Assembly (NCBI RefSeq): GCF_003121485.1
Contig: NZ_QAVX01000001.1
Coordinates: 372,001-436,000, forward strand
Origin: Dyella sp. C11
Lineage (GTDB): Bacteria > Pseudomonadota > Gammaproteobacteria > Xanthomonadales > Rhodanobacteraceae
Length of the DNA: 64,000 nt
Direction: 5' to 3'
Part shown: positions 22,342-38,221 of the stretch, piece by piece
Position numbering within the stretch: the first letter of the stretch is position 1
How the letters are laid out: each line of letters starts with the position of its first letter
Notes under the pieces: model-generated
The model's database searches: none
What the model was told of the DNA's origin: nothing
What the model saw: the letters and a program-made list of their open reading frames with translations, nothing else
Translations under genes and position numbers: made by a program

Positions 22342-23123
22342 GGCTGTGCTTCCGGCCAGGCGATCGGCTGCGTCGCAAGGAAGTTGGCCAGCTCACGGTT
22401 GAGGTCAGGCGCCACGTTCTTGAGGCGATACTCGCTGATGGGCACGTAGACGACGGCGCCCGGCGCAAGCGAAAGCGGATGGCTGCGATTCCACGCGCCC
22501 ATGCCTTGCCGGAACACGCGGCCATCCGGCTGGATCACGAAGATCCAGTCGTTGTCCGCTTCCTTCAACAGGGGGCAGGCCTTGAGATAACGCATGGCAT
22601 CCTGCAAGGCGACATGCGGCAGCTCGCACGCCGCGGCCACGGCACCCACCACGCGAATCGTGGAGGGGCGCGTGGGGTAATAAAGCGCGTCGCCTTCGGC
22701 AACGGGCTTGTTTTCCGCGGGAGTGACTTCGAGCGCGCGAGGATCCAGTAACGCCACCTGGCGGCCGGTCACGGGCATGCGCTGTACCCATGACGCCATG
22801 CGGGCGGCCAGATCTGCCAGGCCATCATGTTCGTCCTTCAGGGCGTGCAGGCGCAGCTGGTTGAGATCGAACAATACGCCGGCCTTATCGCGCGACTGGG
22901 CGGCCTGCAATGCAGGGCGAAGCCACGCCGCGCCGGCCGTATAGGCGTCCCTATGCAAGGGTGACGAAAGAGCCGCCTGACTCAGCCTGGCGCCTGCCGG
23001 GATGTTCCTGGTGCCGCCTGCATTGACGGCGCCCCGTACATCGACCTGCGTGGCAACGCTCCCGGAAGAAACCCCCAGGGATGCCAGCAGGCCGAGGCAA
23101 AGCAACGCGCTGCGCAGCCTCAT
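22338..23123 (-). CDS. gfcC: GfcC/YjbG-family periplasmic capsule protein
   Basis: 261 residues with a signal peptide (ALLCLGLLASLGVSSGSVA). An early ubiquitin-like/SLBB-type segment, VDVRGAVNAGGTRNIPAGA, resembles GfcC domain D2/D3. The C-terminal region carries DWIFVIQPDGRVFRQGMGAW, then SLAPGAVVYVPI, which is also characteristic. GfcC is a periplasmic protein needed for assembly of some capsules. Both ends overlap neighbours by four bases, so translation is coupled. Confidence 0.83.
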   Translation of the reverse strand: MRLRSALLCLGLLASLGVSSGSVATQVDVRGAVNAGGTRNIPAGARLSQAALSSPLHRDAYTAGAAWLRPALQAAQSRDKAGVLFDLNQLRLHALKDEHDGLADLAARMASWVQRMPVTGRQVALLDPRALEVTPAENKPVAEGDALYYPTRPSTIRVVGAVAAACELPHVALQDAMRYLKACPLLKEADNDWIFVIQPDGRVFRQGMGAWNRSHPLSLAPGAVVYVPISEYRLKNVAPDLNRELANFLATQPIAWPEAQP

Positions 23124-23866
23124 GGGCTACCCCGGTAAGGACGAAGCTGCACAACGGTCAGCGTCAGGCCCGGCATGAGGTGTTGTTCGCTTTTCCAGAC
23201 GAAGCCGTCCTGCGGGTCCACCCAGTAACGGTTGGTGGCGTGGAATCCGGCCGCAGGCATGGCCATGTCTTCGGTGATCAGCGTCACGGCATGGCTGGTG
23301 CCGAGAATGTCGATGGTGGCGTTGCCCGATGCCGAAAGCTCGGCGTGCACGGGAATGCCGTAGCGGTATCCGGGAGACCAGTCGTCCTGGCGGTCATAAG
23401 CCGCATGCGAGTCGACATGGTTCAGGCCGGCGTCGAACGGATCGTTCGTGGAGACGATGCGGCTGGCATCGAGGTTTTCCGGCAGGCCGAACGTCTGCAC
23501 GACGCGCCCATGGTCCAGCACCACGAAGGCGCCGTCCTTGCCGTACCAATACTGGCGATGGCCATCGATGTTGCCGAGCACGAGGATCGCATCACCACCG
23601 TTCGTGGTGACGTGGATCTGCGCGTAGGGATTGGCCGCAACCTGCTCGGGCGTCGGATTCAACTTCGCGTGGCTTTGCCACTCCAGCTTGATCGTGTCGA
23701 TGGTGCCGCGCGTTGCCTGGGTGCAGCCACCCAGTAAAAAGACACACGCCCACAGCCATACCCCTGCGCCCCAACGCGATCGCCTTGTGTGGCTGGCGGC
23801 GTTGGCGTGGCGCACTTCGGCGGCCGGCTCCGCGTGAGCCGGTGGCGGGGTAGCCCCTGAACGCAC
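23120..23866 (-). CDS. gfcB: GfcB/YjbF-family lipoprotein
   Basis: 248 residues. An unusually long Arg/His-rich leader of about 30 residues precedes the lipoprotein signal VWLWACVFLLGGCTQ, so the true start might be further inside, but no better start with a ribosome site is seen. The YjbF fold follows: TIDTIKLEWQSH, then WYGKDGAFVVLDHGRVVQT and NRYWVDPQDGFVWKSEQ near the end. It sits between the Wza-like gene and the gfcC-like gene, overlapping the latter by four bases. Confidence 0.82.
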   Translation of the reverse strand: MRSGATPPPAHAEPAAEVRHANAASHTRRSRWGAGVWLWACVFLLGGCTQATRGTIDTIKLEWQSHAKLNPTPEQVAANPYAQIHVTTNGGDAILVLGNIDGHRQYWYGKDGAFVVLDHGRVVQTFGLPENLDASRIVSTNDPFDAGLNHVDSHAAYDRQDDWSPGYRYGIPVHAELSASGNATIDILGTSHAVTLITEDMAMPAAGFHATNRYWVDPQDGFVWKSEQHLMPGLTLTVVQLRPYRGSP

Positions 23867-23867
23867 G

Positions 23868-24971
23868 TCAGTTGTGGCCGAGGTTGTAGCTGGCGTCTGC
23901 CGCGCTGCTGATGATGCCGCTCAACGGCAGCAGCTGTGACAGGAAGCGGTTCCAGCGAGTTACGCCAGCAGGGCCCACAAACACCACGTCACCCGGCTTG
24001 ACCTTGAACTGATCCGCCAGCAGGAACGCGTCGGGCGAGCGCGCGTCGAGCTGATACACCGTGCCCTTGGCGTTTTCCAGGTTCTCGATGCCGCGAATCA
24101 CGTACACGGCCTTGCCCTTGGACGTCGACTGGTTGAGGCCACCCGCGCGCCCCAGCGCCTGCGTAAGCGTGAGGTCGGTGGTCTTGAACGGAAGCGCGGT
24201 CGGGCGATTCACTTCGCCGATCACGTACGCCTCGTGGCGATCGTTGTAGGGCAGGAACAGTCGATCGCCCGGCTTCAGGTACACGTCCTGGGCCATGGCC
24301 TTGCTGCTGTTCAGTGCATCGAGATCGATGTGGTAATCGTGGCCATCACGCGACAGCACCAAACCGGAAAGGTTTGCCTGCTCGGTGTTGATGACAGCCA
24401 CGCCAAGAGCCTGGGAAAGCGTAGTGGGAATGGCGGTGATGGGTTGCGGGTCGGTCTTGATGAAAGCGCCCTGCACAGTCACGCGCTGGCTGCCGTAACC
24501 GATCACATTCACGTCGACCTGCGGCTTTTCCACATATTTGGCCAGCTTGTCGCTGATGGCCTTGCGCAGTTCTTCGATCGTCAGGCCCGAGACCTTCAGT
24601 TCGCCCACATAGGGGTAAAACAGCGTGCCGTCTGAGCGCACCAGTCGACCGTTGGCCAACGTCTGCTGCTGCGGACCCGCTGGCGATGTCAGCTCGGGGT
24701 GATCCCACACCGTGATGTACAGCGTGTCTCCCGCGCCGATGCGGTAAGACTCGGGCTTGTACGCCAGCAACTCCGGCGCAATCGCAGCCGCATTCTCCGC
24801 TGCCCGATCCATGGCCAGCTGCTTGGGCGTAATGGGCACGATATCGACGCGGCTGCTTTCGTCGGCGCTTCGCATCATGTTGCTGGTGGACATGTGCTGG
24901 CCCGGCGCCCAGATGCATCCGTGCAGCAGGAGGGTCGCGGCGGCAAGCGCCACGGCAGTGCGTACGTTCAT
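23868..24971 (-). CDS. gfcE: Wza/GfcE-family outer-membrane polysaccharide export lipoprotein
   Basis: 367 residues. The lipobox LLLHGC lies at about 14-19. A poly-export (PES) domain around 75-185 begins YRIGAGDTLYITVWDHPEL and includes YPYVGELKVSGLTIEELR. Two SLBB repeats follow (VTVQGAFIKTD... and AYVIGEVNRPTALPFKTTD, cut here), then a C-terminal amphipathic helix ending in SYNLGHN, which in Wza forms the outer-membrane pore. It is one base from the gfcB-like gene. Confidence 0.92.
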   Translation of the reverse strand: MNVRTAVALAAATLLLHGCIWAPGQHMSTSNMMRSADESSRVDIVPITPKQLAMDRAAENAAAIAPELLAYKPESYRIGAGDTLYITVWDHPELTSPAGPQQQTLANGRLVRSDGTLFYPYVGELKVSGLTIEELRKAISDKLAKYVEKPQVDVNVIGYGSQRVTVQGAFIKTDPQPITAIPTTLSQALGVAVINTEQANLSGLVLSRDGHDYHIDLDALNSSKAMAQDVYLKPGDRLFLPYNDRHEAYVIGEVNRPTALPFKTTDLTLTQALGRAGGLNQSTSKGKAVYVIRGIENLENAKGTVYQLDARSPDAFLLADQFKVKPGDVVFVGPAGVTRWNRFLSQLLPLSGIISSAADASYNLGHN

Positions 24972-25407: not shown

Positions 25408-25745
25408 GAGAACTCCATTCTGGTGGTAAACGGGCGCCATATAAGCACACCCTTGCCAGAAAATGAACGAACCGCTGGCCCCCTTGGCGGATCGCCCGTT
25501 CAGTGACGCGGATCAAAGTTGAGTTATGATTGTAAGCTGAATGCAAGACTTATGTTGGCATTTTGTGAGCAGCAGGTGATCGGTATGTGAGCGTTAAGCG
25601 ACGCCTCTCGTCAATCACCAAAAAGCAAGATCGGCATAAGGCGCGTTTTCTACAGGGGTCTGTTTCGTGGGGGTACTGCATGCGCTTTCGCGCGTGCCGG
25701 GCTTTTATGGGCAGTGGATAGTGCTTGCTTGAGTTGCTCGCTGCT
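25408..25745. other. divergent intergenic region between the two polysaccharide operons
   Basis: 338 bases with no convincing gene. It must hold the promoter of the leftward gfc-like operon and that of the rightward wzb-wzc operon. The section 25505-25700 is notably AT-richer than the flanks. A possible leftward -10 (TATATG, read on the minus strand near 25440) has only a weak -35. No FNR box, JUMPstart or ops element was found. Confidence 0.5.
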
Positions 25746-26189
25746 GTGTTCAAAAGGATCTTGATTGTCTGCGTGGGGAACATCTGCCGTAGTCCTACGG
25801 CTGAGTACCTGTTCCGTCATCACCTTGCATCGGCTGGTGTCTCCATTGAGAGCGCCGGCCTGGGCGCGCTTGTGGACAAGCCCATGGACCCGACGGCTCT
25901 TGAGGTGCTTGGGGATCACGGTGTTGATGGTGTTGCGCACCGTGCGCGCCAGATCAGCGCATCCATGCTTCGCGACGTCGACCTCGTGCTTGCCATGGAG
26001 CGAGAGCACGTCAATCGCATCGCACGCCTTGCGCCCGAAGCCAGCGGCAAGGTGATGCTGCTGGACCGCTGGAATCAGGGTGCAGACATTCCCGATCCCT
26101 ATCGGCAAAGCCGCGAAGCATTCGATCACGTCTACAGCCTTATAGATCGCGGTGTAAATGCGTGGCTGCCGTATTTGCGTGTGTCGTGA
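25746..26189 (+). CDS. wzb: low-molecular-weight protein-tyrosine phosphatase (Wzb-like)
   Basis: 147 residues from GTG 25746. The P-loop CVGNICRS (Cys9 to Ser16) is the catalytic signature, with nucleophile Cys9 and Arg15. The general acid lies in IPDPYRQS near the C-terminal third. Wzb-type enzymes dephosphorylate the tyrosine tail of the partner kinase Wzc, which follows 105 bases downstream. A TTG start seven codons earlier is possible. Confidence 0.92.
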   Translation: MFKRILIVCVGNICRSPTAEYLFRHHLASAGVSIESAGLGALVDKPMDPTALEVLGDHGVDGVAHRARQISASMLRDVDLVLAMEREHVNRIARLAPEASGKVMLLDRWNQGADIPDPYRQSREAFDHVYSLIDRGVNAWLPYLRVS

Positions 26190-26294: not shown

Positions 26295-28496
26295 ATGGCC
26301 GCAACTCAAAACACCTCGCCACAAGAAGACGAGATCGACCTGCGCGAATTGCTCGGCACGTTGGTCGACCACAAGTGGCTGATCGGCATCATCACGGGCA
26401 TTTTCTTCGTGCTCAGTGTGGGCTATGCCGTGCTCGGCACGCCGATCTACGAGGCGGATGCCCTGGTGCAGGTGGAGCAGAAGGTGCCGGATCTCCCGGG
26501 CCTGAGTGCCATCACGCAGACGCTCGGCGCGTCGAGCTCCGAGGCGACGACGGAAATTGCGTTGATCACATCGCGCACGGTCATCGGCAAGGCGGTGGAC
26601 GACCTCAATCTTCAGATTGAAGTAGCGCCGTACCACTTCCCGATCTTCGGTGGCTGGGTGTCTCGTCATTTCGTGCCCGACCAACCGGCCGACGTGGCGT
26701 CGCCGCTGCTCGGTTTCAGCCGCTACGACTGGGGCAATGCCAAGCTCGACATCTTCCAGATGAAGGTGCCCGCTTCGCTGGAAGAAAAGAAGCTGGTCCT
26801 CGTTGCCGGTGAGCATGGCAACTACACGCTCTACTACAGCGGCGATGTCATGCTGACGGGCCGCGTGGGGGATGTTGCCACGGGGCATGGCTTCACCATG
26901 CAGGTGCGCGAGCTGCGCGCGAACCCGGGAACGCATTTCACCGTCATCCACCACACGGCGCTTGCGGTAATCAACCAGCTGCAGCTGGACATCAATGCCA
27001 CGGAACAGGGCAAGGATTCGGGCATCATCCAGCTCACGTACGACCACGAAGACTCCGATCTTGCGGCCGCGCTGCTTGATCACGTGAGCCAGGCGTACGT
27101 GAAGCAGAACGTGGAGCGGAACTCCGCCGAGGCAGCGAACAGCCTCAAGTTTGTTCGCGAGCAGCTGCCGCGCATTCGCCAGGATCTGGACAACGCACAG
27201 AGTGCGCTGAATGCATTCCAGACCAAGGCGCACTCGGTCGACATTACGCTGCAGACCAAGGGTCTTCTTGACCAGGAAGTGGCGATCGAAACGAGCATCC
27301 AGCAGCTGCGCATGCAGCAGGCGGACATGGAACGTCGTTTCACCGGCGAGCATCCGGCGTACAAGGCGTTGCTGGAACAGATCGGCCAGTTGCAGGCGCA
27401 AAAGACCGGCATTGAAAAGCAGGTCGGTGGGTTGCCCGATACGCAGCAGGAATTGCTGCGACTGACGCGGGATGTCGAAGTTCTCAACGCCACCTACACG
27501 GGTCTGCTCAACCAGGCCCAGCAGCTCGACATTGCGCGAGCTGGCACGGTGGGTAACGTGCGCATCATCGACCAGGCGGCCGTGGATATTTCCAAGCCCG
27601 CCAAGCCCAAGAAGCCGCTGGTCGTGCTTGGTGGCACCTTCCTTGGTGGATTCCTGGCCGTTGGCTTTGTGCTGCTGCGCCAAATGCTCAGCCGCGGCGT
27701 GGAAGATCCGACCGCGATCGAGCAACTGGGCCTGTCGGTCTATGCATCCATCCCGAGCAGCGTGGCGGAAAAGCAGAGTTTCCTGCAGGGGCGTCGCGGA
27801 CGTACCGACGGCCGGCAGAAGTTGCTCGCCGTCAACGCGCCGGCGGATCTTGCCATCGAAGCCTTGCGTAGCTTGCGCACGAGCCTGCATTTCGCCCGTA
27901 TCGAGGCGAAGAACAACATCCTGATGATCTCGGGCGCCAGTCCGGGCGCCGGCAAGACGTTCATTTCCTCCAACCTGGCTGCGGTCATCGCCAAGGGTGG
28001 CCAGCGCGTGCTGCTCATCGACGGCGACATGCGCAAGGGTGCATTGCACACCGTGATCGGTGGTCGTCCTGACAAGGGCCTTTCCGAACTCATCTCCGGC
28101 CAGTTGACCGTCGAGGACGTGATCCGCACGGTGCCCGACGCGGAAGGCCTGCACTTCATCGCCCGTGGCAAGGTGCCGCCCAATCCGTCGGAGCTGCTCA
28201 TGCATGCGCGTTTCAGCGAATTGCTCGAAACCCTCAAGCCTGACTACGACCTGGTCATCATCGATACGCCGCCCATTTTGGCGGTGACGGACGCGGCCAT
28301 CATGGGCCACCACGTGGGCACCAGCCTGCTGGTGATCCGCTTTGGCCTCAATCAGGCGAAGGAGATCGCGTTGGCAAAGCAACGTTTCGAGCAGAACGGC
28401 GTGCAGATCAAGGGTGCGGTGTTCAATGCGGTGGAGCGTCGTAGCACGGGCTACTACTCCTACGGGTACTACGAGTACGGCAGCAGCCCGGCCTGA
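26295..28496 (+). CDS. wzc: Wzc-family chain-length regulator and autophosphorylating tyrosine kinase
   Basis: 733 residues. The Wzz domain begins IDLRELLGTLVDHKWLIGII, with TM1 near 28-48, a periplasmic coiled-coil domain to about 440 and TM2 near 441-462. The BY-kinase domain has Walker A SGASPGAGKT (546-555), Walker A' LLIDGDMRK (573-581) and Walker B VIIDTPP (654-660). The tail holds a tyrosine cluster: Tyr720, 721, 723, 725, 726 and 728. It polymerises and phosphorylates to control polysaccharide export, acting with the phosphatase just upstream and the Wza-like channel of the opposite operon. Confidence 0.95.
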   Translation: MAATQNTSPQEDEIDLRELLGTLVDHKWLIGIITGIFFVLSVGYAVLGTPIYEADALVQVEQKVPDLPGLSAITQTLGASSSEATTEIALITSRTVIGKAVDDLNLQIEVAPYHFPIFGGWVSRHFVPDQPADVASPLLGFSRYDWGNAKLDIFQMKVPASLEEKKLVLVAGEHGNYTLYYSGDVMLTGRVGDVATGHGFTMQVRELRANPGTHFTVIHHTALAVINQLQLDINATEQGKDSGIIQLTYDHEDSDLAAALLDHVSQAYVKQNVERNSAEAANSLKFVREQLPRIRQDLDNAQSALNAFQTKAHSVDITLQTKGLLDQEVAIETSIQQLRMQQADMERRFTGEHPAYKALLEQIGQLQAQKTGIEKQVGGLPDTQQELLRLTRDVEVLNATYTGLLNQAQQLDIARAGTVGNVRIIDQAAVDISKPAKPKKPLVVLGGTFLGGFLAVGFVLLRQMLSRGVEDPTAIEQLGLSVYASIPSSVAEKQSFLQGRRGRTDGRQKLLAVNAPADLAIEALRSLRTSLHFARIEAKNNILMISGASPGAGKTFISSNLAAVIAKGGQRVLLIDGDMRKGALHTVIGGRPDKGLSELISGQLTVEDVIRTVPDAEGLHFIARGKVPPNPSELLMHARFSELLETLKPDYDLVIIDTPPILAVTDAAIMGHHVGTSLLVIRFGLNQAKEIALAKQRFEQNGVQIKGAVFNAVERRSTGYYSYGYYEYGSSPA

Positions 28497-28752: not shown

Positions 28753-30174
28753 ATGCTGACAATGCCAGGAGTTCCGCAACTTAAACGGGCGGAGTCCCAT
28801 TTCTTTTCAAAATACGCAGCGTTGCTGGACATCGCACTTCGCGTGAGCGACGTGCTGGTTATCACCGTGATGGCGCTTGCCGTCTATCGCTGGGAGTTCG
28901 GCAACTTCTCGATGGATATCCACTACACCTCCGGCCTCATCCGGACGGTGCTGCTGGCACTCGTGATCTTCCCGGCGACAGGTCTCTATCGCAGCTGGCG
29001 CGGTGAAAACCGACTGTTTGAACTCGCGCGGCTTTGGCTGGCCTGGTCCGGCGTCATGGTGATGTTGCTGGCGATCGCCTGGGCGCTGAAGACCACCGAC
29101 GCCTATTCGCGGGTCGGTGCGGGCACCTGGTTCGTCACGACCGGTGTCCTGCTGACGATCGACAGGTTGGCGCTGCGCTGGGTGCTTGGCCACATTCGCA
29201 TGCGCGGAGTCGATTCGCGCCGCGTGCTGCTCATTGGCAGCACGCAGGCGGGGCAGCGCATTGTCAATGCGGCCCGCAAGAACGCATGGGCCGGCCTCGA
29301 CATTATTGGCTACGTGCGCACTCCTTACGATCAGGTGGAAATCGATGGCGTGCCCTGCCTGGGCGATTTCGACGACATCGCCGCATCGTTCGATGGATGG
29401 GAGCCAGACCAGGTCTGGGTCGCGCTGCCCATGCGCGCGGAAGCCATGATCCAGAAGGTGCTGCAGCTCACCATCGACAAGCCGTCCACCATCCGCCTGG
29501 TCCCGGACTTCTTCGGGTACGAGTTGATCAACCATCACGCCGCCGTTCTCAACGGCGTGCCGGTGATTACCTTGCGCGCGAGCCGAGTGACGGGCCATTC
29601 GCACATCGTGAAAGGCATGATGGACCGTGCCATCTCTGCGGTGCTGTTGTTGGTCATCAGTCCGCTCATGCTGGTTCTTGCGCTCGGTGTAAAACTGAGC
29701 AGCCGTGGCCCGGTGTTCTATCGCCAGCGCCGAGTCGGTATGGATGGCAAGGAATTTGACATGCTCAAGTTCCGCTCCATGCCTGTCGACGCGGAAAGTA
29801 AGGGCGTGCAGTGGGGCAATGCCGGCAACAAGACGACGACACGCTTCGGCCGCTTTATTCGCAGCAGCAGTCTTGATGAGCTGCCGCAGTTCATCAATGT
29901 GTTGCGTGGTGAGCTTTCAATTGTCGGCCCGCGCCCGGAGCGGCCGGTTTTCGTGCACGAGTTCAAGCGCACCATTCCCGGCTACATGCACAAACATTTC
30001 GTGAAAGGCGGCATTACGGGCTGGGCGCAAATCAATGGTCTGCGCGGTGATACCGATCTGGCCAAACGCATCGAATACGACCTGCACTACATCAAGAATT
30101 GGTCATTGTGGCTGGACGTAAAGATCATGCTGCGCACGCCTCTGGTCCTTCTGAAGAGAACCAATGCCGTCTGA
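28753..30174 (+). CDS. undecaprenyl-phosphate glucose/sugar phosphotransferase (WcaJ/PssY type)
   Basis: 473 residues. Four N-terminal helices (about 25-140) precede a CoA-binding-like Rossmann module (RRVLLIGSTQAGQRIVNAAR at about 155). A fifth membrane segment (MDRAISAVLLLVISPLML) leads into the catalytic bacterial sugar transferase domain with FYRQRRVGMDGKEFDMLKFR, SLDELPQFINVL and GWAQINGLRGDT. This polyprenyl-phosphate hexose-1-phosphate transferase starts the repeat unit on undecaprenyl phosphate. Glucose is the usual sugar; galactose cannot be excluded, since galE is in the cluster. Confidence 0.92.
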   Translation: MLTMPGVPQLKRAESHFFSKYAALLDIALRVSDVLVITVMALAVYRWEFGNFSMDIHYTSGLIRTVLLALVIFPATGLYRSWRGENRLFELARLWLAWSGVMVMLLAIAWALKTTDAYSRVGAGTWFVTTGVLLTIDRLALRWVLGHIRMRGVDSRRVLLIGSTQAGQRIVNAARKNAWAGLDIIGYVRTPYDQVEIDGVPCLGDFDDIAASFDGWEPDQVWVALPMRAEAMIQKVLQLTIDKPSTIRLVPDFFGYELINHHAAVLNGVPVITLRASRVTGHSHIVKGMMDRAISAVLLLVISPLMLVLALGVKLSSRGPVFYRQRRVGMDGKEFDMLKFRSMPVDAESKGVQWGNAGNKTTTRFGRFIRSSSLDELPQFINVLRGELSIVGPRPERPVFVHEFKRTIPGYMHKHFVKGGITGWAQINGLRGDTDLAKRIEYDLHYIKNWSLWLDVKIMLRTPLVLLKRTNAV

Positions 30175-30236
30175 TGCGGGAAAGGAATGGTGACGGGTAG
30201 GGTCGAGCCCGCGCCGGGTGGTTAACTTTAGAGTTG

Positions 30237-31391
30237 ATGAAGATGAGTAGTACCGGGTGGTTTGTCTATTGGGGCGTTTCGTCGCTTGCGATGATTTGCT
30301 TTGTTATGGCGGCGCAGCAGACCACCCGCCTGGGGGAGCGAAGCGTGCACGGCAGTTCGAAAGGACTGTCGCTGCTGTGCATACTTAGCGTCTTCGTCCT
30401 GGGCGCCTATTTCATCGGACTTCGGCCGATCAATCTTGGCTCCGATACGCCAAATTATGTTCGAGCCTATCGCGCACTCGGCTCGTTGACCGGGGCGAGG
30501 GAAGTGGGTCTTGCCTACTTCGGCAATACCGAGTGGCTTTACTGGCCTGTACAGGCCGTGGTGAAGCTTCTGGTGCCAGAGCCGTCGGCGTGGCTGTTAA
30601 CTACGTACGCACTTACTTTTTTCGGTGCCTGGCTGGCCTATCGCTTCATGGCGCAGGAATTGGGCGCCCCAGCGATCATTTTTATTTTGCTGTTCTTTAC
30701 CTATGAGTTGGTTTTCTTTGGAAACATTCTCAGACAAGTTGCCTCCTATCCACTGGGTATTCTTGCCTGCTATCAGCTGAGTGAGCGGCGACGATTCCGT
30801 GCGAGCGCGCTCTTCGCCATCGCTGTCGGGTTGCACTGGTCGTCACTCATATTCGTCCTTTACCCCGTTTTGCGCATTCTGCCGATTACCACGCGGGTAC
30901 GCGCGGTGATCTATTTCGCTGGTGCCCTTGCTGCCTCCGGACTGATCCTCGCTCTCACGCAGCGCATCGGCGGTGCGTCAGCGGCACTGGGAAGCATGGC
31001 TAGTCTTTCCGAAAAAGCGGCTTCGTACTCGGGCGGCACCACTGGCTTTGGACCCGTGTACACCACATTCAATTTTTTCGGCTGTGTGGTGATGATTCTG
31101 ATGTACCTGCTGGCCCTCGATGACGTCAGGCGCAGCCCGGTTTTCAATGCAGTGTTTTTGTTGTTTTCTGGATTGGTTGTCGTGGGCGTCGCCGTGCCGA
31201 CTCTTTCCGAGCGCTTCATTACGAACACTCTGTACTTGTTTCCGGCTATCGCATGGGTCGTCGTGCGCCGCTTGATCCCTCGCTCAGAAGGGCTGCGTCG
31301 CATCGCGTTAGCCGTGTTCTTTTTGACGATGGGGGCGGCGGTGCTGATGCAAAAGAGCGCTATCTACACGCTGGGACTCGTTTCGGACTAG
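30237..31391 (+). CDS. EpsG-family polysaccharide polymerase (Wzy-like)
   Basis: 384 residues with about ten to twelve hydrophobic helices. The EpsG/Wzy signature GLRPINLGSDTPNYVRAY near residue 62, and a large loop with FFGNILRQVASYPLG, match the EpsG family. It probably polymerises the lipid-linked repeat units in the periplasm. ATG 30237 or 30243 could be the start; neither has a strong ribosome site. It shares the AT-richer base composition of the following genes. Confidence 0.8.
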   Translation: MKMSSTGWFVYWGVSSLAMICFVMAAQQTTRLGERSVHGSSKGLSLLCILSVFVLGAYFIGLRPINLGSDTPNYVRAYRALGSLTGAREVGLAYFGNTEWLYWPVQAVVKLLVPEPSAWLLTTYALTFFGAWLAYRFMAQELGAPAIIFILLFFTYELVFFGNILRQVASYPLGILACYQLSERRRFRASALFAIAVGLHWSSLIFVLYPVLRILPITTRVRAVIYFAGALAASGLILALTQRIGGASAALGSMASLSEKAASYSGGTTGFGPVYTTFNFFGCVVMILMYLLALDDVRRSPVFNAVFLLFSGLVVVGVAVPTLSERFITNTLYLFPAIAWVVVRRLIPRSEGLRRIALAVFFLTMGAAVLMQKSAIYTLGLVSD

Positions 31392-31464: not shown

Positions 31465-32265
31465 ATGTCTAGAATTGCTGTGTTACTGGCTGCGTACAAC
31501 GCTGAAATGTCCCTGCAGAAGGCCGTGGACAGCGTGTTCGCGAGCACCATCCCGGTAGATCTTTTTATTATCGATGATGGTAGCCGGCTTCCTGTCGAGG
31601 ATTTCATTCAGCCGTCCAATCGCCTGCGAGTTGTTCGGCTGCCAGCCAACAAGGGCCTGGTAGGGGCACTTAATGCCGGACTGGATCTCATCGTGAGCGA
31701 AGGGTACCCATACGTCGCTAGGATGGACGCGGATGACGCTTGCCATCCCAATCGTTTCGCGCGTCAGTTGGCGTTTCTTGAAGAACATCCCGACATAGAT
31801 CTGGTGGGATCGTGGGCCAGGTTTCTGGATGAAAGCACCGGCGCGGTAACCATGGAATATCAGCCGCCGACTGCGCCTGCTGACGTCAGGCGCGCGCTCT
31901 ACTTCAATAGTCCCGTTCTACACCCTACCTGGATGGTGCGGGCGTGTGTATTTGCGCAGGGGATGCGTTACAGGTCTCTGTACCCCGCCGCTGAAGACTA
32001 CGATCTTCTTTGTCGATTGGCGCGGTCGTCCAGCCTGGGCAATCTTCCCGAGTATCTACTCGACTACACAGTCTCTACCCAAGGAATCTCGATCAAGCGA
32101 AGGCGCCGGCAGTTGATGGACAGGCTGCGTATTCAGTGTTCCATGTTCACGCTGAAAAATGTCGCTTCCATGGCCGGGATTGCCAAAACCTTGATGCTAT
32201 TTCTTGTGCCGGGCGAGTGGGTTCGTGCGGCCAAGACGATGGCATGGTCGCGAGCACGCTCATGA
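31465..32265 (+). CDS. family 2 glycosyltransferase (first)
   Basis: 266 residues with a GT-A fold. The nucleotide-binding start is IAVLLAAYNAEMSLQKAV, followed by FIIDDGS near 35 and the metal-binding ARMDADDACHP near 88. The later AAEDYDLLCRLA is the GT2 catalytic ED motif. It probably adds one sugar to the lipid-linked repeat unit. Its stop overlaps the next start (ATGA at 32262). Confidence 0.9.
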   Translation: MSRIAVLLAAYNAEMSLQKAVDSVFASTIPVDLFIIDDGSRLPVEDFIQPSNRLRVVRLPANKGLVGALNAGLDLIVSEGYPYVARMDADDACHPNRFARQLAFLEEHPDIDLVGSWARFLDESTGAVTMEYQPPTAPADVRRALYFNSPVLHPTWMVRACVFAQGMRYRSLYPAAEDYDLLCRLARSSSLGNLPEYLLDYTVSTQGISIKRRRRQLMDRLRIQCSMFTLKNVASMAGIAKTLMLFLVPGEWVRAAKTMAWSRARS

Positions 32266-33341
32266 AAGTTCTGCACGTCGCCGAAACCATTCGTGGCGGA
32301 GTCGCCACGGTCATGCGTCTGAATATTGCAGCTCAGGTTGAGGCATATGGTGCACGGAATGTCGCAGCGCTTGTCCCAGCGGAGCAGGCGGATGATTTGC
32401 TGAATCCGGCATGCATGGTCAGCACATTTGTGCGTCGGCGGCGTGGCCTTGCGTCCATGTGGAATCTTTTCAAAGCCCTGCGTCGAGCAGCAAGGGAGTT
32501 TGAGCCAGACGTTGTCCATCTGCATAGTACATTTGCAGGTTTCGTTGGCCGGATCGCTTTGGCGTTGCCAGGCGTGATTCAGTGGCGTAGGCCAAGGGTT
32601 GTGTACTGCCCGCACGCCTGGGCTTTCCTTATGACCACGTCGGACGCTCAGCGAAAACTTTATGGTGTGATTGAAAAGGCGTTGGCGCCGTTTACCGATC
32701 GCATCGTCTGCGTTAGCAGATTCGAAGTCGACAACGCGCTTGAAGTAGGCATACCGGGAGCAAAGATCGAGCTGGTTTACAACGGGGTTCCCGCGTCGCC
32801 GTGCGTGGCGGATATCAAGGATGACGAAGATCCGATCCACTTGCTATTCGTCGGACGCCTCGACTACCAAAAAGGCTTCGACATTCTGCTGGACATCATG
32901 AGCCGCCTTGGCGACAAACCAATACTGCTTACTGTGGTGGGTGATGCCGTCATAAGCGGTGAGAAGCCACCCTCTCGACCCAATATCAATTATCTGGGTT
33001 GGAGGGCGGCCGAGGAAGTCGCGCACCAGATGCGATCCGCTGACCTGTTGATCATGCCTAGCCGGTGGGAAGGGTTCCCTATGGTGCTTCTGGAAGCGAT
33101 GAGTCACGGGCTGCCGGCTTTGGCCAGTCGTTGCAGTTCGATGCCCGAAGTTATCAGGCATGGGAAAAATGGCTACTTGTTCGACCTGGATGATATGGAG
33201 TCGGCTGTCACCCTTATTCTGGGGCTTGACCGGAACACATTGAAATCCATGGGATTGGCTGCACGGAATGCTTATGCCGAGCAGTTCACCGCTGCGCACA
33301 TGACCAGCAAAACCATGGCGTTGTACCGGGAGCTGGCGTGA
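32262..33341 (+). CDS. family 4 glycosyltransferase
   Basis: 359 residues with a GT-B fold. The N-terminus is MKVLHVAETIRGGVATVMR; the acceptor-side region has PDVVHLHSTFAGFVGRIA. The donor-binding half carries LLFVGRLDYQKGFDILLD and the GT4 E-x7-E motif in SRWEGFPMVLLEAMSHG. The ATG was chosen because it overlaps the upstream stop as ATGA; in-frame sequence further upstream is antisense-like. A 29-codon frame starts within the stop codon. Confidence 0.92.
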   Translation: MKVLHVAETIRGGVATVMRLNIAAQVEAYGARNVAALVPAEQADDLLNPACMVSTFVRRRRGLASMWNLFKALRRAAREFEPDVVHLHSTFAGFVGRIALALPGVIQWRRPRVVYCPHAWAFLMTTSDAQRKLYGVIEKALAPFTDRIVCVSRFEVDNALEVGIPGAKIELVYNGVPASPCVADIKDDEDPIHLLFVGRLDYQKGFDILLDIMSRLGDKPILLTVVGDAVISGEKPPSRPNINYLGWRAAEEVAHQMRSADLLIMPSRWEGFPMVLLEAMSHGLPALASRCSSMPEVIRHGKNGYLFDLDDMESAVTLILGLDRNTLKSMGLAARNAYAEQFTAAHMTSKTMALYRELA

Positions 33342-33430
33342 TGGCGTCATTGAGACTGCTTTTCTGCGGACGGGCACGCGAAGCCGGGTTTGGTCGTGGC
33401 TTTAAGCGTTACGTGGACTTGCCGCTATGA
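33341..33430 (+). CDS. tiny coupled reading frame, possible gene remnant
   Basis: 29 residues, MASLRLLFCGRAREAGFGR at the start and YVDLPL at the end. It exactly fills the space between the GT4 gene and the flippase: its ATG shares one base with the upstream stop (TGATG), and its stop overlaps the flippase start (ATGA). The double coupling argues it is translated. The N-terminus looks like the first beta strand of a GT-B enzyme (RLLFCGRA), so it may be what is left after an internal deletion of a glycosyltransferase gene. No function can be assigned. Confidence 0.4.
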   Translation: MASLRLLFCGRAREAGFGRGFKRYVDLPL

Positions 33431-34674
33431 TCAGATCTGTCTTGAGTACGTATCTGCTTTTTGGCGTGCGCACTTGCATGCCGCTGCTGCTGCTTCCCAT
33501 TCTTTCCCACCGCGTGGGCAGGGACGAATTTGGTGTGGTGCTGGCCGTTCAGTCATTGGGACTTCTTGGCTCAGTGCTGACCGAGTATGGATTTCACTAC
33601 GCCGCGGCACGCGAACTTGGACTTGCGAATGACGGTCACGACATTGCTCGCATTGTCTCCCGCACATTCTTTTCCCAGCTACTTCTGGCGGCCTTAACGC
33701 TCATTATCGTCGGTCTATCGGCGCTCCTGACCCCAGTGCTTTCCGCGTCGCCGGTTGCGATTGTCTCAGCGATACTTATTGCCGTTGCGACGGGTTTGGC
33801 ACCCGTATGGTATTTCCGCGGAGTTGGCAAAGCGTCCTGGGCAATCGCTATCGAAGCCTTTGGGCAGTTTGTGGCGCTGGGGCTGATGTTCTGTCTAGTT
33901 CGTGCACCTCGCGATGCACCCTTGGCGATGTCTTTCATGGCCATTGGTCCTTGCTGTTCATTCGTATTGGGCTATGCGATAACCCTGCGTCGCGGCGTCG
34001 CCATTCTGCGGGTGAGGATGAGCGATGTGCTAAGCGAGCTGCGCGCCGTCTTTTCGTTGTTTCTTGTCCGTGCGGGAAGTTCGTTCTATACCGTTGCTGC
34101 CATATGGATTACAGCGCTGCTTTCTTCGACCAACCAGGTCGCCTATTACGGCGTGGCGTCCAAGCTTGGCGGTCTCTTGGTGGCGCTCTATCAGCCGGTC
34201 TCCCATGTCATGGTGCCGAGGGCCGCACGTTTAGCCCAAGAAGCCCCCGGGCTATTGCGAAGAGAGGCCGTGAGGTGGGGTTCCTGCATGGTGGTCTTTG
34301 GGCTGATTGTTGTTGCAATCATTCATGCGGTCATTGCGCCAGTCATTTCTTTGGCGTTGGGTGATGATATGCGGCCGGCTATCGCCGTTGCCGAAGTGCT
34401 CTCGTGGGTGTGCGTAACTGCGGCCCTCAAGGAAGCGGCAAGTTGCTTCTATCTCATCCCATACCGGCAAGATCGACTCATGTCCGCATCCGTCATCGCG
34501 GCTGGGCTGCTCAATCTTGGTCTGGCCTATGTGTTGGTGCCTGCCAAAGGAGCGATGGGCATGGCCTGGAGTCGACTCATATGCGAGCTATTCATCGTCG
34601 TCGTGTTCCTGGCGTTCGCCATTTTTGGTGCGATGGACTGGCGGCGGACGTCGCCCCGCCCAGTGGTCGACTGA
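33427..34674 (+). CDS. Wzx-like oligosaccharide flippase
   Basis: 415 residues with about twelve membrane helices. The polysaccharide-synthase/MATE-like signature is LLLLPILSHRVGRDEFGVVLAVQ near 17-40, cut here to RVGRDEFGVV, together with PVWYFRGVGKASW and the helix-rich C-terminus. It probably flips the finished undecaprenyl-linked repeat unit to the periplasm. The start overlaps the tiny upstream frame. Confidence 0.88.
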   Translation: MIRSVLSTYLLFGVRTCMPLLLLPILSHRVGRDEFGVVLAVQSLGLLGSVLTEYGFHYAAARELGLANDGHDIARIVSRTFFSQLLLAALTLIIVGLSALLTPVLSASPVAIVSAILIAVATGLAPVWYFRGVGKASWAIAIEAFGQFVALGLMFCLVRAPRDAPLAMSFMAIGPCCSFVLGYAITLRRGVAILRVRMSDVLSELRAVFSLFLVRAGSSFYTVAAIWITALLSSTNQVAYYGVASKLGGLLVALYQPVSHVMVPRAARLAQEAPGLLRREAVRWGSCMVVFGLIVVAIIHAVIAPVISLALGDDMRPAIAVAEVLSWVCVTAALKEAASCFYLIPYRQDRLMSASVIAAGLLNLGLAYVLVPAKGAMGMAWSRLICELFIVVVFLAFAIFGAMDWRRTSPRPVVD

Positions 34675-34688
34675 CCGAAGGTTGCTAG

Positions 34689-35624
34689 ATGATGAAGTCC
34701 TACAACCGGCCTCCGTTATTTTCGGTGGTCATCCCGACCTATAACAGGCGTGACCTGCTGCTTCGCGCCGTGCGTTCCGTCATCGATCAGTCCTTCGACG
34801 ATTTTGAAGTGATCGTCGTCGACGATTGCGGCTCCGATGACTCGGAATCACACCTTCAGTCGATGGGCGACAGCCGCATTCGTTACGTGCGTTTGGTGGA
34901 GAATGCCGGGGCGGCCGCTGCACGCAACGAAGGGGTCCGTTTGGCCGCTGGTCTCTGGACCTGTTTCCTGGATAGCGATGACGTTTGGCTCAAGGACAGA
35001 CTGGGCAAGCTTGCAAGTTTTATCGCGTCTCATGGAAATTCAGAGCGTCTCGTTTACTGGTCGTCTCTCTATTTTGATAGGGGCGATGAGGTGCTGCAGC
35101 TCAAGCCGCAAAGCCATCCGGAGCCAGCATTCCGTCTGATGACTTATCTCCTTTGCTCCGATGGCTTGATGCAGACCAGCACGCTCGCCTTGGCTGCCGA
35201 TGTAGCTCGTAAACATCCTTTCGACGAGAGCATGAAGATTCACGATGACTATTCGTTTCTGTTGAATCTAGAGCGTGCTGGCTATCAGTTCGCGGGAGAT
35301 ACCGATGCACAGGTCGTATGGAAGAACGACATCCAAGGTCCTCGGGTCAGCCTTAATGGCAAGATGGAGCGCAACGAGAAATGGCTTGCAATGTACGGTC
35401 GATGGCTTAGCCCCAAGGAACGTTCGGCGTACGAGGCGTTGTTTCTTGCTCCCAAGCTGGGGCCAAGGCAGTTCGTTCGATCAGTAGCGATGGTGGTAAA
35501 GGCTTTTGCACGGAGAGCTATCGGCCCTCGGCGAGCAGCCCTTTCTTTGATGGGCCTCCTTATGCCACGCCATTTGTACGAGAGCTTGGCAAGGCGATTG
35601 TTGAAATCGGGTGGCCATTCTTAA
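34689..35624 (+). CDS. family 2 glycosyltransferase (second)
   Basis: 311 residues with a GT-A fold. FSVVIPTYNRRDLLLRAVRS starts the nucleotide-binding domain, VIVVDDCGSDDS follows near 42, and the metal-binding motif is FLDSDDVWLKDRL near 97. The C-terminal third is basic and helical, with no predicted membrane anchor beyond a weak segment. It lies 14 bases after the flippase, so it is co-transcribed. Confidence 0.9.
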   Translation: MMKSYNRPPLFSVVIPTYNRRDLLLRAVRSVIDQSFDDFEVIVVDDCGSDDSESHLQSMGDSRIRYVRLVENAGAAAARNEGVRLAAGLWTCFLDSDDVWLKDRLGKLASFIASHGNSERLVYWSSLYFDRGDEVLQLKPQSHPEPAFRLMTYLLCSDGLMQTSTLALAADVARKHPFDESMKIHDDYSFLLNLERAGYQFAGDTDAQVVWKNDIQGPRVSLNGKMERNEKWLAMYGRWLSPKERSAYEALFLAPKLGPRQFVRSVAMVVKAFARRAIGPRRAALSLMGLLMPRHLYESLARRLLKSGGHS

Positions 35625-35695
35625 GGTCGTGCTGGGCGGCAAGACGCATGATCGGAGATGCATCGCATGGCGTCACTACTCGTTGGGGAATCTTA

Positions 35696-37150
35696 GTGAT
35701 CGGTAAGCAGTGGCAGGCAATACTCCTGGGCATCTTCAGTTGGATCGCGCTCGGCACCCAGGCCCCGGCGCAATCTTCGCGCGCCGCGGAGGATGATGGA
35801 TATTGCCTAAAGTGCACCCGTATCAAGATTGGCTCTCCCCATCTCATGCGGGGGCCGGCGGAAGATATCGGCGACAATCGCTTTTCATTCTTGAGGTTGA
35901 CGGATGGCAGGTTTCGCGGGTTTGACGCCAATGGTGTAACGCGCGCCATCGATGGAGCGTCGCCTTGGGACATGAATGGCGACGGACGCATCGTGTTGAA
36001 GCGAGGCGCTGAGGGTAGCTATGACGCCTGTGGCCAGTGGATCCAGCATATTGAACATCGCGGTGATGTCCTGCTCGGGTTCGTGCATAACGAAACTGCC
36101 TGTAATTACCGTATCGGGCAAACCCATAAATCCATGTCCTTGGCCCTCTCCAAAGACAGCGGCGAAACATGGAGTACCCAGGGGTTGGTAATCTCGGGTA
36201 GCGATGTACCTGCTGCCGGTAAGAATACGGGGGAGGGCGACTGTACGTTTGTCGATGGACACGACGACTATTACTACGCTTACTGTGGACGTTCACGAGA
36301 CGGTAATGTCGTGAGTATTCGTGCGCCCAAGGTGAATCCAGGCCCCGGGCATTGGATGAAATACCAGGACGGCCTTTGGAATCAGCCCGGTCTTGGCGGT
36401 GACGCCTCACCACTCGGTCACCTGGGCTCAAGCGCTGCCTACTGGGTAGATGCGAAAGAGACCATATTGCTGGGATGGCAGGGCGGGGGTATCAGCGTCC
36501 ATCTGTCCAAAGACCATGTCAGCTTCGGAAAAGAGTGGATACGTTTGTTACCCGCGGGTCAGGGAGCGTGGAGGAGGCCCGATCCATCGGAGGCCGTGGC
36601 CTATCCTGTCGTTCTAAATGCCGATGATGGTTCCAATCAGCTGACGGCAAACTGGATGTTGGTTTATGCGTACTGGTACCCAGGCGCTGGCCCGAAAGAC
36701 AAGTATGTCGTGGGCAGAAGCATTAGCGTCTCCACCGCCACGTCTCCGGTCTATGCGCATGCCTTGATCATGCTGGCGCGATGGCGATCCGCTGATGGTG
36801 CTGACCAGTGGTCGACCACGGGAGTGGCCATAGATCGCGGGAATGCCTATGCTTTCGATAAAAATTTGGGCTACCTGCTGACATCGCCTGAGCCGGGGCT
36901 CAATCTTCTGCAACTGCAGGACTGCGTATCGCGAGATGGGCGTTCAGCGCACTTTCTAGGTACGGAAACGGATTGCGAGAAAAATGGATTCGCCTCCGTT
37001 CGATTAGCGGGATGGGCATACGCCGAGTCGCAAGACGGCACGCAGGCACTTTACGAATGTGTGAGCGCGGATCGCCGGATGTTTGCGTCCAACGATGTGG
37101 CTTGCGAAGGAAAAGGGTCGGGAAAGCTTCTCGGCTACACAGCGCAATAA
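35696..37150 (+). CDS. secreted Asp-box beta-propeller-like protein with C-terminal Cys repeats
   Basis: 484 residues from GTG 35696. That start has GGGGA six bases upstream and gives a proper signal peptide (MIGKQWQAILLGIFSWIALG), unlike the ATG at 35648. A sialidase-type Asp-box, SKDSGETW, lies at 152-159, with a degenerate second (SKDHVSFGKEW) near 271. The extended beta-rich middle resembles five-bladed propeller glycosidases. Two C-terminal repeats (405-443 and 451-483) share a C-x-S-x-D/R pattern, a later conserved Cys and a Gly-Tyr or Gly-Trp ending. It may hydrolyse or bind the polysaccharide made by its neighbours; no catalytic acid can be named with confidence. Confidence 0.75.
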   Translation: MIGKQWQAILLGIFSWIALGTQAPAQSSRAAEDDGYCLKCTRIKIGSPHLMRGPAEDIGDNRFSFLRLTDGRFRGFDANGVTRAIDGASPWDMNGDGRIVLKRGAEGSYDACGQWIQHIEHRGDVLLGFVHNETACNYRIGQTHKSMSLALSKDSGETWSTQGLVISGSDVPAAGKNTGEGDCTFVDGHDDYYYAYCGRSRDGNVVSIRAPKVNPGPGHWMKYQDGLWNQPGLGGDASPLGHLGSSAAYWVDAKETILLGWQGGGISVHLSKDHVSFGKEWIRLLPAGQGAWRRPDPSEAVAYPVVLNADDGSNQLTANWMLVYAYWYPGAGPKDKYVVGRSISVSTATSPVYAHALIMLARWRSADGADQWSTTGVAIDRGNAYAFDKNLGYLLTSPEPGLNLLQLQDCVSRDGRSAHFLGTETDCEKNGFASVRLAGWAYAESQDGTQALYECVSADRRMFASNDVACEGKGSGKLLGYTAQ

Positions 37151-37214: not shown

Positions 37215-37246
37215 AAAAAAGTTGAACCAGCGAGGCTTTGGAATTT

Positions 37247-38221
37247 ATGCACGTTTTGATTTGTGGCGGCGCGGGGTACGTCGGCAGCCATATGGCCAAA
37301 TGGATGGCAAGCCGCGGCTTTACGGTATCCGTGCTCGACAACTTATCAACTGGCCATCGTGCAGCGGTGCAATGGAGCGATCTGCTTGAAGTGAATCTCC
37401 TCGACAAGCATGCGCTTGATCAGGTTTTTTCAGCGGGTCCCATTGATGCAGTCATGCATTTTTGCGCACGCTCGCTGGTTGGAGAGTCGGTTGTCGAGCC
37501 CTATCAGTATTACGAGAACAACGTGGTCGGCACATTGAATCTACTTCAAGCCATGCGGAAACACGGTGTGGATCGCCTTGTTTTTTCTTCGACCGCGGCA
37601 GTGTATGGCCATCCTGAAATGGATCACATTGATGAGGAGCACCGCAAGGCTCCTATCAATCCGTATGGCATGAGCAAGCTGATGGTCGAGCACATGCTCG
37701 CCGATGCGGCCGCTGCGTATGGACTGAGGTCAGTGTCGCTTCGCTACTTCAATGCTGCGGGCGCCAGCGAGGATGCGGAGATAGGCGAGGCGCATGAACC
37801 GGAAACTCACCTTATTCCCAATGTATTGAAGTCTGTGTTGGGACAAGGAGCGGCGCTGAAGATATTCGGAGACGACTATCCAACGCCGGACGGTACGTGC
37901 GTGCGTGATTACGTGCACGTCGACGATCTGGCGCAGGCCCATGAGCTGGCGCTGAGGTACATGGACACGCATGAAGGTGCTCATGCCTTCAACCTGGGAA
38001 GCGGCGAGGGCTACTCGGTCCGTGAGGTCATGTCGGTGGCTGAGCGGGTGACGGGGCGATCGGTGCCCTATGAAGTTGCTCCACGGCGCGCTGGCGATCC
38101 GGCAGTGCTTGTTGCATCCAGCTCAAGAGCGAGGCGCGAATTGGGTTGGCAGCCGAAGTACAACGAGTTGGGCGCGATCATCGAAAGCGCATGGCGATGG
38201 CATGTGAATCGAAAATTCTGA
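37247..38221 (+). CDS. galE: UDP-glucose 4-epimerase
   Basis: 324 residues. It is an extended SDR enzyme: NAD-binding GGAGYVGSH (7-15), DNLSTGH, then VFSSTAAVYG (112-121) and the catalytic YGMSK with Tyr140 and Lys144. The substrate-side motifs LRYFNAAGA and DGTCVRDYVHVDDLA are diagnostic for GalE. It interconverts UDP-glucose and UDP-galactose and presumably supplies a galactose donor for this polysaccharide. The ATG at 37247 is chosen as the first codon of the conserved MHVLICGGAG. Confidence 0.94.
   Translation: MHVLICGGAGYVGSHMAKWMASRGFTVSVLDNLSTGHRAAVQWSDLLEVNLLDKHALDQVFSAGPIDAVMHFCARSLVGESVVEPYQYYENNVVGTLNLLQAMRKHGVDRLVFSSTAAVYGHPEMDHIDEEHRKAPINPYGMSKLMVEHMLADAAAAYGLRSVSLRYFNAAGASEDAEIGEAHEPETHLIPNVLKSVLGQGAALKIFGDDYPTPDGTCVRDYVHVDDLAQAHELALRYMDTHEGAHAFNLGSGEGYSVREVMSVAERVTGRSVPYEVAPRRAGDPAVLVASSSRARRELGWQPKYNELGAIIESAWRWHVNRKF

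Follow-up and report, generated by a model that had tools for sequence, protein, structure and literature searches.

The window analysed here is a 64,000-nucleotide stretch of the Dyella sp. C11 genome. Between 22338 and 38930 it contains what is, judged from the gene families encoded, a group-4-capsule-type Wzx/Wzy cluster, within which lies the gene that is the subject of this analysis:

22338-23866 (22338-23123 and 23120-23866), minus strand: GfcC and GfcB/YjbF, group-4-capsule accessory proteins (PF06251, PF11102)
23868-24971, minus strand: Wza-type outer-membrane export protein (PF02563, PF22461)
25725-26189, plus strand: Wzb-type low-molecular-weight protein tyrosine phosphatase (PF01451)
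26295-28496, plus strand: Wzc-type tyrosine autokinase/chain-length protein (Pfam and NCBIfam matches)
28753-30174, plus strand: WcaJ-type undecaprenyl-phosphate glucose phosphotransferase (TIGR03023, 480 bits; cut-off 411)
30234-31391, plus strand: EpsG-family protein, probable Wzy polymerase (PF14897)
31465-32265, plus strand: family-2 glycosyltransferase (PF00535)
32010-33341, plus strand: family-4 glycosyltransferase, open reading frame (ORF) as listed, start tentative (PF00534/PF13692)
33427-34674, plus strand: Wzx-type flippase (PF01943)
34689-35624, plus strand: family-2 glycosyltransferase directly upstream of the gene of interest, after which a 71-bp gap follows (PF00535)
35696-37150, plus strand: gene of interest, with a GTG start and a TAA stop, for a putative secreted two-domain protein of 484 amino acids
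37174-37215, plus strand: palindrome of 42 bp, hairpin-forming, between the gene of interest and galE, in a single genome copy
37238-38221, plus strand: galE, UDP-glucose 4-epimerase, ORF with a probable ATG at 37247, directly downstream after a 96-bp gap (TIGR01179, 439 bits; cut-off 262)

The cluster is split between the strands: gfcC, gfcB/yjbF and wza lie on the minus strand, and wzb, wzc, wcaJ, wzy, wzx, the gene of interest and galE lie in that order on the plus strand, with a PAP2 phosphatase gene beyond galE on the same strand. The position between a glycosyltransferase and galE, first pointed out in a reading made from the DNA letters (hereafter the sequence-only reading), was confirmed: a family-2 glycosyltransferase gene ends 71 bp upstream, galE begins 96 bp downstream and all three are on the plus strand. 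GC content is 0.56 over 30-38 kb, compared with 0.62 in the preceding 10 kb and 0.66 over 39-44 kb. The Wzx protein was found in one of 20 genus genomes and the EpsG-type Wzy in one of 230 family genomes, in each case only in the strain's own genome. The low GC content and the confinement of Wzx and Wzy to this genome therefore place the gene in a strain-specific, polymer-defining segment.

The palindrome between the gene and galE is near-perfect and can fold into a hairpin (folding z-score of -2.1 for the surrounding 97-base stretch), and the base that follows it is A, not T. It was ruled out as a repeated element by its single copy in the genome, and was rejected as a terminator on the base that follows it and on its absence from the predicted terminator-like sites. 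The regulatory-site prediction that gave those sites returned no promoter-like sites.

The following features were assigned to the gene of interest and its product:

35685-35689, plus strand: GGGGA, likely ribosome-binding site of the GTG start, with a 6-nt spacer (sequence)
35696-35773, plus strand: signal peptide, approximately residues 1-26, judged by eye
35804-36790, plus strand: N-terminal domain (residues 37-365), which belongs to a small family and is probably a beta-propeller (family profile matches)
35873-35875, plus strand: Asp60, candidate catalytic base or nucleophile, invariant in eight of eight family members
36086-36094, plus strand: His131-x-Glu133, candidate second catalytic or ligand group, both residues invariant in eight of eight family members
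36149-36172, plus strand: Asp-box SKDSGETW, residues 152-159 (pattern S/T-x-D-x-G-x-x-W)
36791-37147, plus strand: C-terminal module, residues 366-484, DUF5648-like, with two Cys-bearing units of ~44 residues and probably also a Cys-free first unit

An in-frame ATG at 35648, 48 bases 5′ of the GTG, would give a protein of 500 amino acids. No ribosome site was evident at this ATG. In the homologue from Dyella silvatica, the reading frame opens one codon 5′ of its ATG, and the MVTGQ encoded from there aligns with VIGKQ of the GTG start. Three points favour 35696 as the probable start over 35648, in line with the earlier preference: GGGGA lies 6 nt before the GTG, a ribosome site is not evident at the upstream ATG, and the ATG of the homologue aligns with the GTG. 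The signal peptide was judged by eye from an n-region (VIGKQWQ), a hydrophobic stretch (AILLGIFSWIALGT) and an APA/AQS-type end; export of the protein is predicted on this basis. The three protein features that the sequence-only reading had listed, namely the signal peptide (by eye), the SKDSGETW Asp-box and two C-terminal Cys repeats, are all present in the 484-residue protein.

The S/T-x-D-x-G-x-x-W pattern arose by chance in 393 of 20,000 shuffles of the window protein, which has just one full box of this kind. An Asp-box is present in all eight N-terminal family members, the window copy counted. Ten cysteines occur in the window protein and 10 of 10 are kept in the sole full-length homologue, that of D. 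silvatica. Such conservation is what an exported protein with disulfide bonds would be expected to show.

Relatives of the window protein are rare and occur at full length in two of 233 family genomes, itself included. The gene has one copy in its own genome, which was also the only one of 20 genus genomes to match. The family search matched five of the 233 genomes, two over most of the length (its own and Dyella silvatica RBB189, G083) and three at the C-terminus only. The full-length D. silvatica homologue is 45% identical, with 161 of 329 positions (49%) identical in the N-terminal domain and 41 of 119 (34%) in the C-terminal domain. A two-row profile of these proteins (the window pair) matched 10 of 398 order genomes, its own included. 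N-terminal relatives in this search came from G002 (L013), G074 (L015), G115 (L018) and G450 (L016), and C-terminal relatives from G141, G088 and G140. A weaker relative in G196 (L017, 901-3102) has the W-x-K-Y-Y...QPGIGG stretch shared by the family, and its tail is RicinB-like at 24.4 bits, under the cut-off of 25.6; it may represent a further domain combination and was left out of the alignments. The match in G301 (L019), 48 positions of a protein that is aminopeptidase-like by eye, was taken as chance.

A class sample of 369 genomes returned the own genome only. With a six-row profile, a phylum sample of 349 genomes returned the window gene itself, G935 and G261; G935 (L035) matches just the C-terminal part (tail) of the L013 branch, and the G261 match is a weak one at the Asp-box. 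The L013 protein as query matched five of 233 family genomes, including G230 (L023) and, weakly, the window. Against plasmids it had one match, in Deinococcus aetherius (31% identity over 52% of the query). Scans of GTDB contigs gave no match with the single protein and one with the two-row profile, in Dyella silvatica. Viral contigs gave none in three scans, and plasmids and phages gave none for the window protein at E 1e-5.

The two C-terminal Cys repeats, formed by C410/C427 and C455/C470, had been described as belonging to no assignable family. This part of the sequence-only reading did not hold, since they are DUF5648-like by profile comparison and by a linking protein. A five-row profile of the C-terminal module compared with itself showed a repeat at offset 43 with a score of 17.3, which was reached in none of 200 column shuffles (maximum 13.2). 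A second peak at offset 88, which would add an earlier Cys-free unit, scored 11.5; because this lies inside the shuffle range, the first unit relies on the window-pair profile comparison, in which the Cys-free first stretch aligns with a DUF5648 unit. The link to DUF5648 came through L014, which the two-row profile matched at E = 3.1e-5 and which itself matches DUF5648 (PF18885) in Pfam (E = 1.4e-14, 54.9 bits; gathering cut-off 25). In hhalign, with L014 left out, five Cys-type modules scored 38.9 against five DUF5648 domains collected by means of PF18885, compared with at most 14.2 when the columns of the five-row profile were shuffled 100 times; the window pair by itself scored 32.2 against the same domains. 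With L014 in the DUF5648 target the real score was 46.4, compared with 12.4 for a reversed-sequence control and 9.3 for an unrelated tail. The PF18885 model gave no match to the C-terminal domain of either the window protein or its D. silvatica homologue at the gathering cut-off of 25 bits. The Cys pairs 410/427 and 455/470 recur in most related modules; L014 is without the last pair. DUF5648 is described as three units of ~45 residues in PMC11299179, and PMC12853789 proposes it as an O-antigen/glycan recognition module. Given the L014 link, the profile score far above shuffles and the ~43-residue repeat, the two Cys repeats most likely correspond to the second and third units of a DUF5648-like module that has diverged.

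The module also occurs with other partners. The single-protein search matched three other apparently secreted proteins (P0003, P0004 and P0005; E 1.5e-8 to 7.2e-7) that have the same C-terminal module and N-terminal domains other than that of the window protein. The front part of P0005 is a right-handed beta-helix (PF13229). That of P0003 had no Pfam match and that of P0004 had one below the cut-off, and the PDB profile search returned nothing for both. A right-handed beta-helix protein ending in the Cys-type DUF5648-like module lies at L009:7359-8900, and in L040 a DUF5648 domain precedes, by eye, a stretch resembling phosphatidylinositol-specific phospholipase C. The module is of a kind proposed to bind glycans, and its partners, a beta-helix in P0005 and domains whose fold is unassigned in P0003 and P0004, make up combinations that might occur in binding proteins. 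Both points are consistent with the window protein being a non-catalytic matrix or surface lectin, in which both domains bind glycan and so anchor or organise the polymer outside the cell.

The window protein had no match in Pfam, NCBIfam, PHROGs or PDB sequences. The relationship of its N-terminal domain to the L013 branch is firm on comparison of the window pair with that branch (profile-profile E = 2.7e-15; single pair E = 2e-8; E-values per single comparison). The nearest named family was DUF4185 (PF13810), that of the GH183 endo-D-arabinanases: the D. silvatica homologue matched it at E 9.5e-4 and 18.9 bits, below the gathering cut-off of 39.5, and the L016 protein matched at 14.2 bits over profile positions overlapping those of the D. 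silvatica match. Used in a genome search at E <= 1, the DUF4185 model found nothing in the window genome, G083, G002 or G115, and none of seven genomes exceeded the 39.5-bit cut-off. We also compared the family with 11 GH183-type domains, comprising GMA6 (the sole one confirmed by Pfam) and 10 chosen from 47 phage and plasmid records matching GMA6. The window protein with its homologue scored 41.9 (maximum of 23.2 in 100 shuffles) and the eight-row family scored 46.2 (maximum of 21.3 in 100 shuffles), and other controls (P0003/P0004, L033 and a beta-helix) scored 14.8-22.4 in the same comparison. A sialidase-like protein used as control only (L036) scored 43.8 against the eight-row family, where GH183 scored 46.2, and 22.1 against the window pair, where GH183 scored 41.9. 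Since L036 nearly equals GH183 on the eight-row family, part of the GH183 signal comes from the Asp-box blade. The P0003/P0004 domain was rejected as an N-terminal relative, with scores of 20.0-22.5 that are no better than shuffles.

A PDB profile search gave 12 rows, all non-significant, of which eight were named levansucrase, sialidase or Asp-box protein: three levansucrase rows (E 0.0098-0.03, over one blade) and five sialidase or Asp-box protein rows (E 0.042-0.077). The top two rows were glutamate 5-kinase (0.009), aligned where the levansucrase rows also align, and another two were pyruvate:ferredoxin oxidoreductase (0.2). Structure prediction, suggested earlier as a check, was run in AlphaFold2 from the two-row alignment and gave mean pLDDT values of 32.6 for the mature protein and 33.0 for the N-terminal domain alone. 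Internal repeats in the N-terminal domain scored 14.8 versus a maximum of 16.6 in 20 shuffles, i.e. not above chance. A beta-propeller is the likeliest fold of the N-terminal domain, most likely one with five blades; because both models have a pLDDT of 33, we grade the propeller as likely and no higher.

With GH183 as the best named family by profile, the window protein could be a GH183 endo-D-arabinanase that has diverged and that acts on the D-arabinofuranose of the polymer. PMC10509167 describes the GH183 enzyme EndoMA1 as a propeller of five blades to which a putative binding module is attached, with Asp33 and Asp51 as catalytic residues, and two aspartates are given as catalytic in GH183 by PMC10115798 and PMC10509167. 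From their spacing, these aspartates would be those of a D-L-G...G-D-[TSN] motif that all 11 GH183-type domains contain and that none of the eight members of the window family has. We rejected GH183 membership on the sub-cut-off score (18.9 bits for the homologue versus a gathering cut-off of 39.5, with no match for the window copy) and on the absent motif, and regard an endo-D-arabinanase of this kind as highly improbable. The same absence of the GH183 catalytic motif from all eight members adds to the case for a lectin.

The conserved residues of the N-terminal domain point the other way. The eight-row alignment has 20 invariant columns, with six rows only 21-24% identical to the window domain, and these columns include Asp60, His131, Glu133, the Ser, Asp, Gly and Trp of the Asp-box, Asp190, Arg209, Lys222, Leu233-Gly-Gly and Asp273. 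Asp77 had appeared invariant in six-row alignments and gave way to Asp60 when the Deinococcus and L023 sequences were added. Glu180, which occupies the possible place of a GH43-type acid, is present in the window pair and is not kept in the wider family. By eye, Asp60 precedes the first hairpin of the domain. The topology given in PMC10509167 places the base or nucleophile of GH43 and GH183 propellers before the first hairpin, and by analogy Asp60 may correspond to that position. His131 and Glu133 make up the other polar pair that is conserved. Asp60, His131 and Glu133 are thus named here as candidate catalytic residues. Their invariance at such low identity, together with the better conservation of the N-terminal domain (49%) than of the C-terminal domain (34%) between the full-length copies, argues against a lectin, while being compatible with a binding protein too. 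On balance, we consider a purely glycan-binding lectin unlikely.

The genomic settings of relatives were compared in ten neighbourhoods, six of N-terminal relatives (L010, L026-L029 and L046) and four of C-terminal-only relatives (L007-L009 and L030). The reading was done largely by eye on translated ORFs and was supplemented by Pfam searches with 10 ORFs from L010, four from L028 and two from L046. A capsule/EPS cluster of the wza/wzc/wzx/wzy type was recognised in none of the ten, within ~6-10 kb on each side. Within 10 kb, L027 contains one ORF resembling a sugar epimerase and one resembling a glycosyltransferase, and in L010 an alginate-lyase-type fragment (29.9 bits) occurs ~9 kb away; no export machinery was seen in either. 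The D. silvatica homologue lies outside any capsule-type cluster. In G115, the relative (L028:8934-10541) is in a cell-wall gene group: RodA-type and transpeptidase genes flank it on one side, and the opposite side carries genes for an SLT transglycosylase and a DPBB/SPOR protein. The Deinococcus aetherius plasmid relative WP_264777512 (L046:5698-7737) is flanked by two gene sets, each of carbohydrate ABC-transporter and LacI genes; by eye, this protein combines a related domain with a tail of two tandem repeats. Since the relatives occupy cell-wall, sugar-transport and other settings, the family looks like one of scattered secreted glycan-acting proteins, of which the window copy came to lie in a capsule-type cluster.

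This scatter bears on a further alternative, in which the protein is a secreted enzyme against other glycans (those of other bacteria, plant or fungal material, or peptidoglycan) and a mere passenger of the variable segment. The N-terminal relatives near RodA and SLT genes in G115, beside sugar transport in Deinococcus and outside a capsule cluster in D. silvatica favour it. Against it stands the placing of the window gene, 71 bp after a glycosyltransferase gene and 96 bp before galE, on the same strand and with the same low GC content. We find this alternative doubtful, although it and the lectin are the two serious rivals of the reading that we favour.

The best reading of the evidence is that the gene encodes a secreted protein, part of the cluster's equipment, that trims or binds polymer. 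A possible enzymatic domain and a sugar-binding-type tail, encoded together in a polysaccharide cluster, suggest that the protein may trim or bind the polymer of its neighbours, as the sequence-only reading had proposed. Of that proposal, the secreted and glycan-related character is supported by the DUF5648-like tail, the GH183/Asp-box similarity and the sugar-transport setting in Deinococcus; the role on the strain's own polymer is circumstantial. The tight position, shared strand, shared low GC content and export signal (by eye) point toward the own polymer. With no capsule-type cluster in the ten neighbourhoods of relatives, that role rests on position.

More specifically, we tentatively put first an exported enzyme that carries a glycan-binding tail and trims the cluster's own polysaccharide, a reading that could well be wrong. 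The exported, Cys-rich, two-domain protein would belong to the polymer-specific (variable) part of the Wzx/Wzy-dependent group-4-capsule-type cluster. Its C-terminal DUF5648-like module would hold a glycan, and its N-terminal domain, through Asp60 and His131-x-Glu133, would cut or trim a glycosidic linkage of the polysaccharide that the adjacent genes produce. Such cutting might set polymer length or clear stalled chains. In this scheme the family relationships of the protein, its modular make-up, the capsule-type context and the low-GC segment specific to the strain are what the data show, and the fold, the disulfides, catalysis, the roles of the residues and the strain's own polymer as substrate are what we infer. 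A bolder version, which we think improbable, is that the N-terminal domain defines a new family of glycoside hydrolases or lyases with Asp60 and His131-x-Glu133 as the catalytic core, the members of which swap binding tails; the window copy, with its disulfide-stapled DUF5648-like module, would have been recruited to a group-4-capsule-type cluster to tailor the polymer.

If the trimming enzyme is real, a family whose window member falls outside the Pfam and NCBIfam models would gain a natural substrate obtainable in pure form from the strain itself. The proposal that DUF5648 recognises glycans could then be tested on a matched module and polymer, and one more capsule-type cluster would be known to carry its own trimming enzyme.

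Several known systems resemble parts of the window protein. With the GH183 (DUF4185) endo-D-arabinanases, the family shares a profile similarity that is weak but exceeds that of shuffles and that spans the Asp-box blade and the one after it; it differs in having no DLG...GD[TSN] motif, a score under the family cut-off and another tail module. The hallmarks of sialidases are several Asp-boxes, an arginine triad and a tyrosine nucleophile. The likeness to these Asp-box propellers consists of an Asp-box blade and non-significant PDB profile rows, whereas the window copy has one full Asp-box and no sialidase match in Pfam or in the PDB single-sequence search. Similarity to the GH68 levansucrases is confined to one-blade profile rows for three chains (E 0.0098-0.03), none a significant match. 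The C-terminal module resembles DUF5648 (PF18885) in its ~44-residue repeat units and in a profile similarity far above shuffles, but its second and third units carry an additional Cys pair, and the Pfam model misses the window copy. At the level of gene organisation, RbmB of Vibrio cholerae and PslG of Pseudomonas are exported polymer-degrading enzymes encoded among the genes of the polymer that they cut. To our knowledge, both belong to protein families other than that of the window protein. If the favoured reading of a polymer-trimming enzyme holds, the window protein would be analogous to RbmB and PslG as an exported enzyme encoded together with the genes for its polymer.
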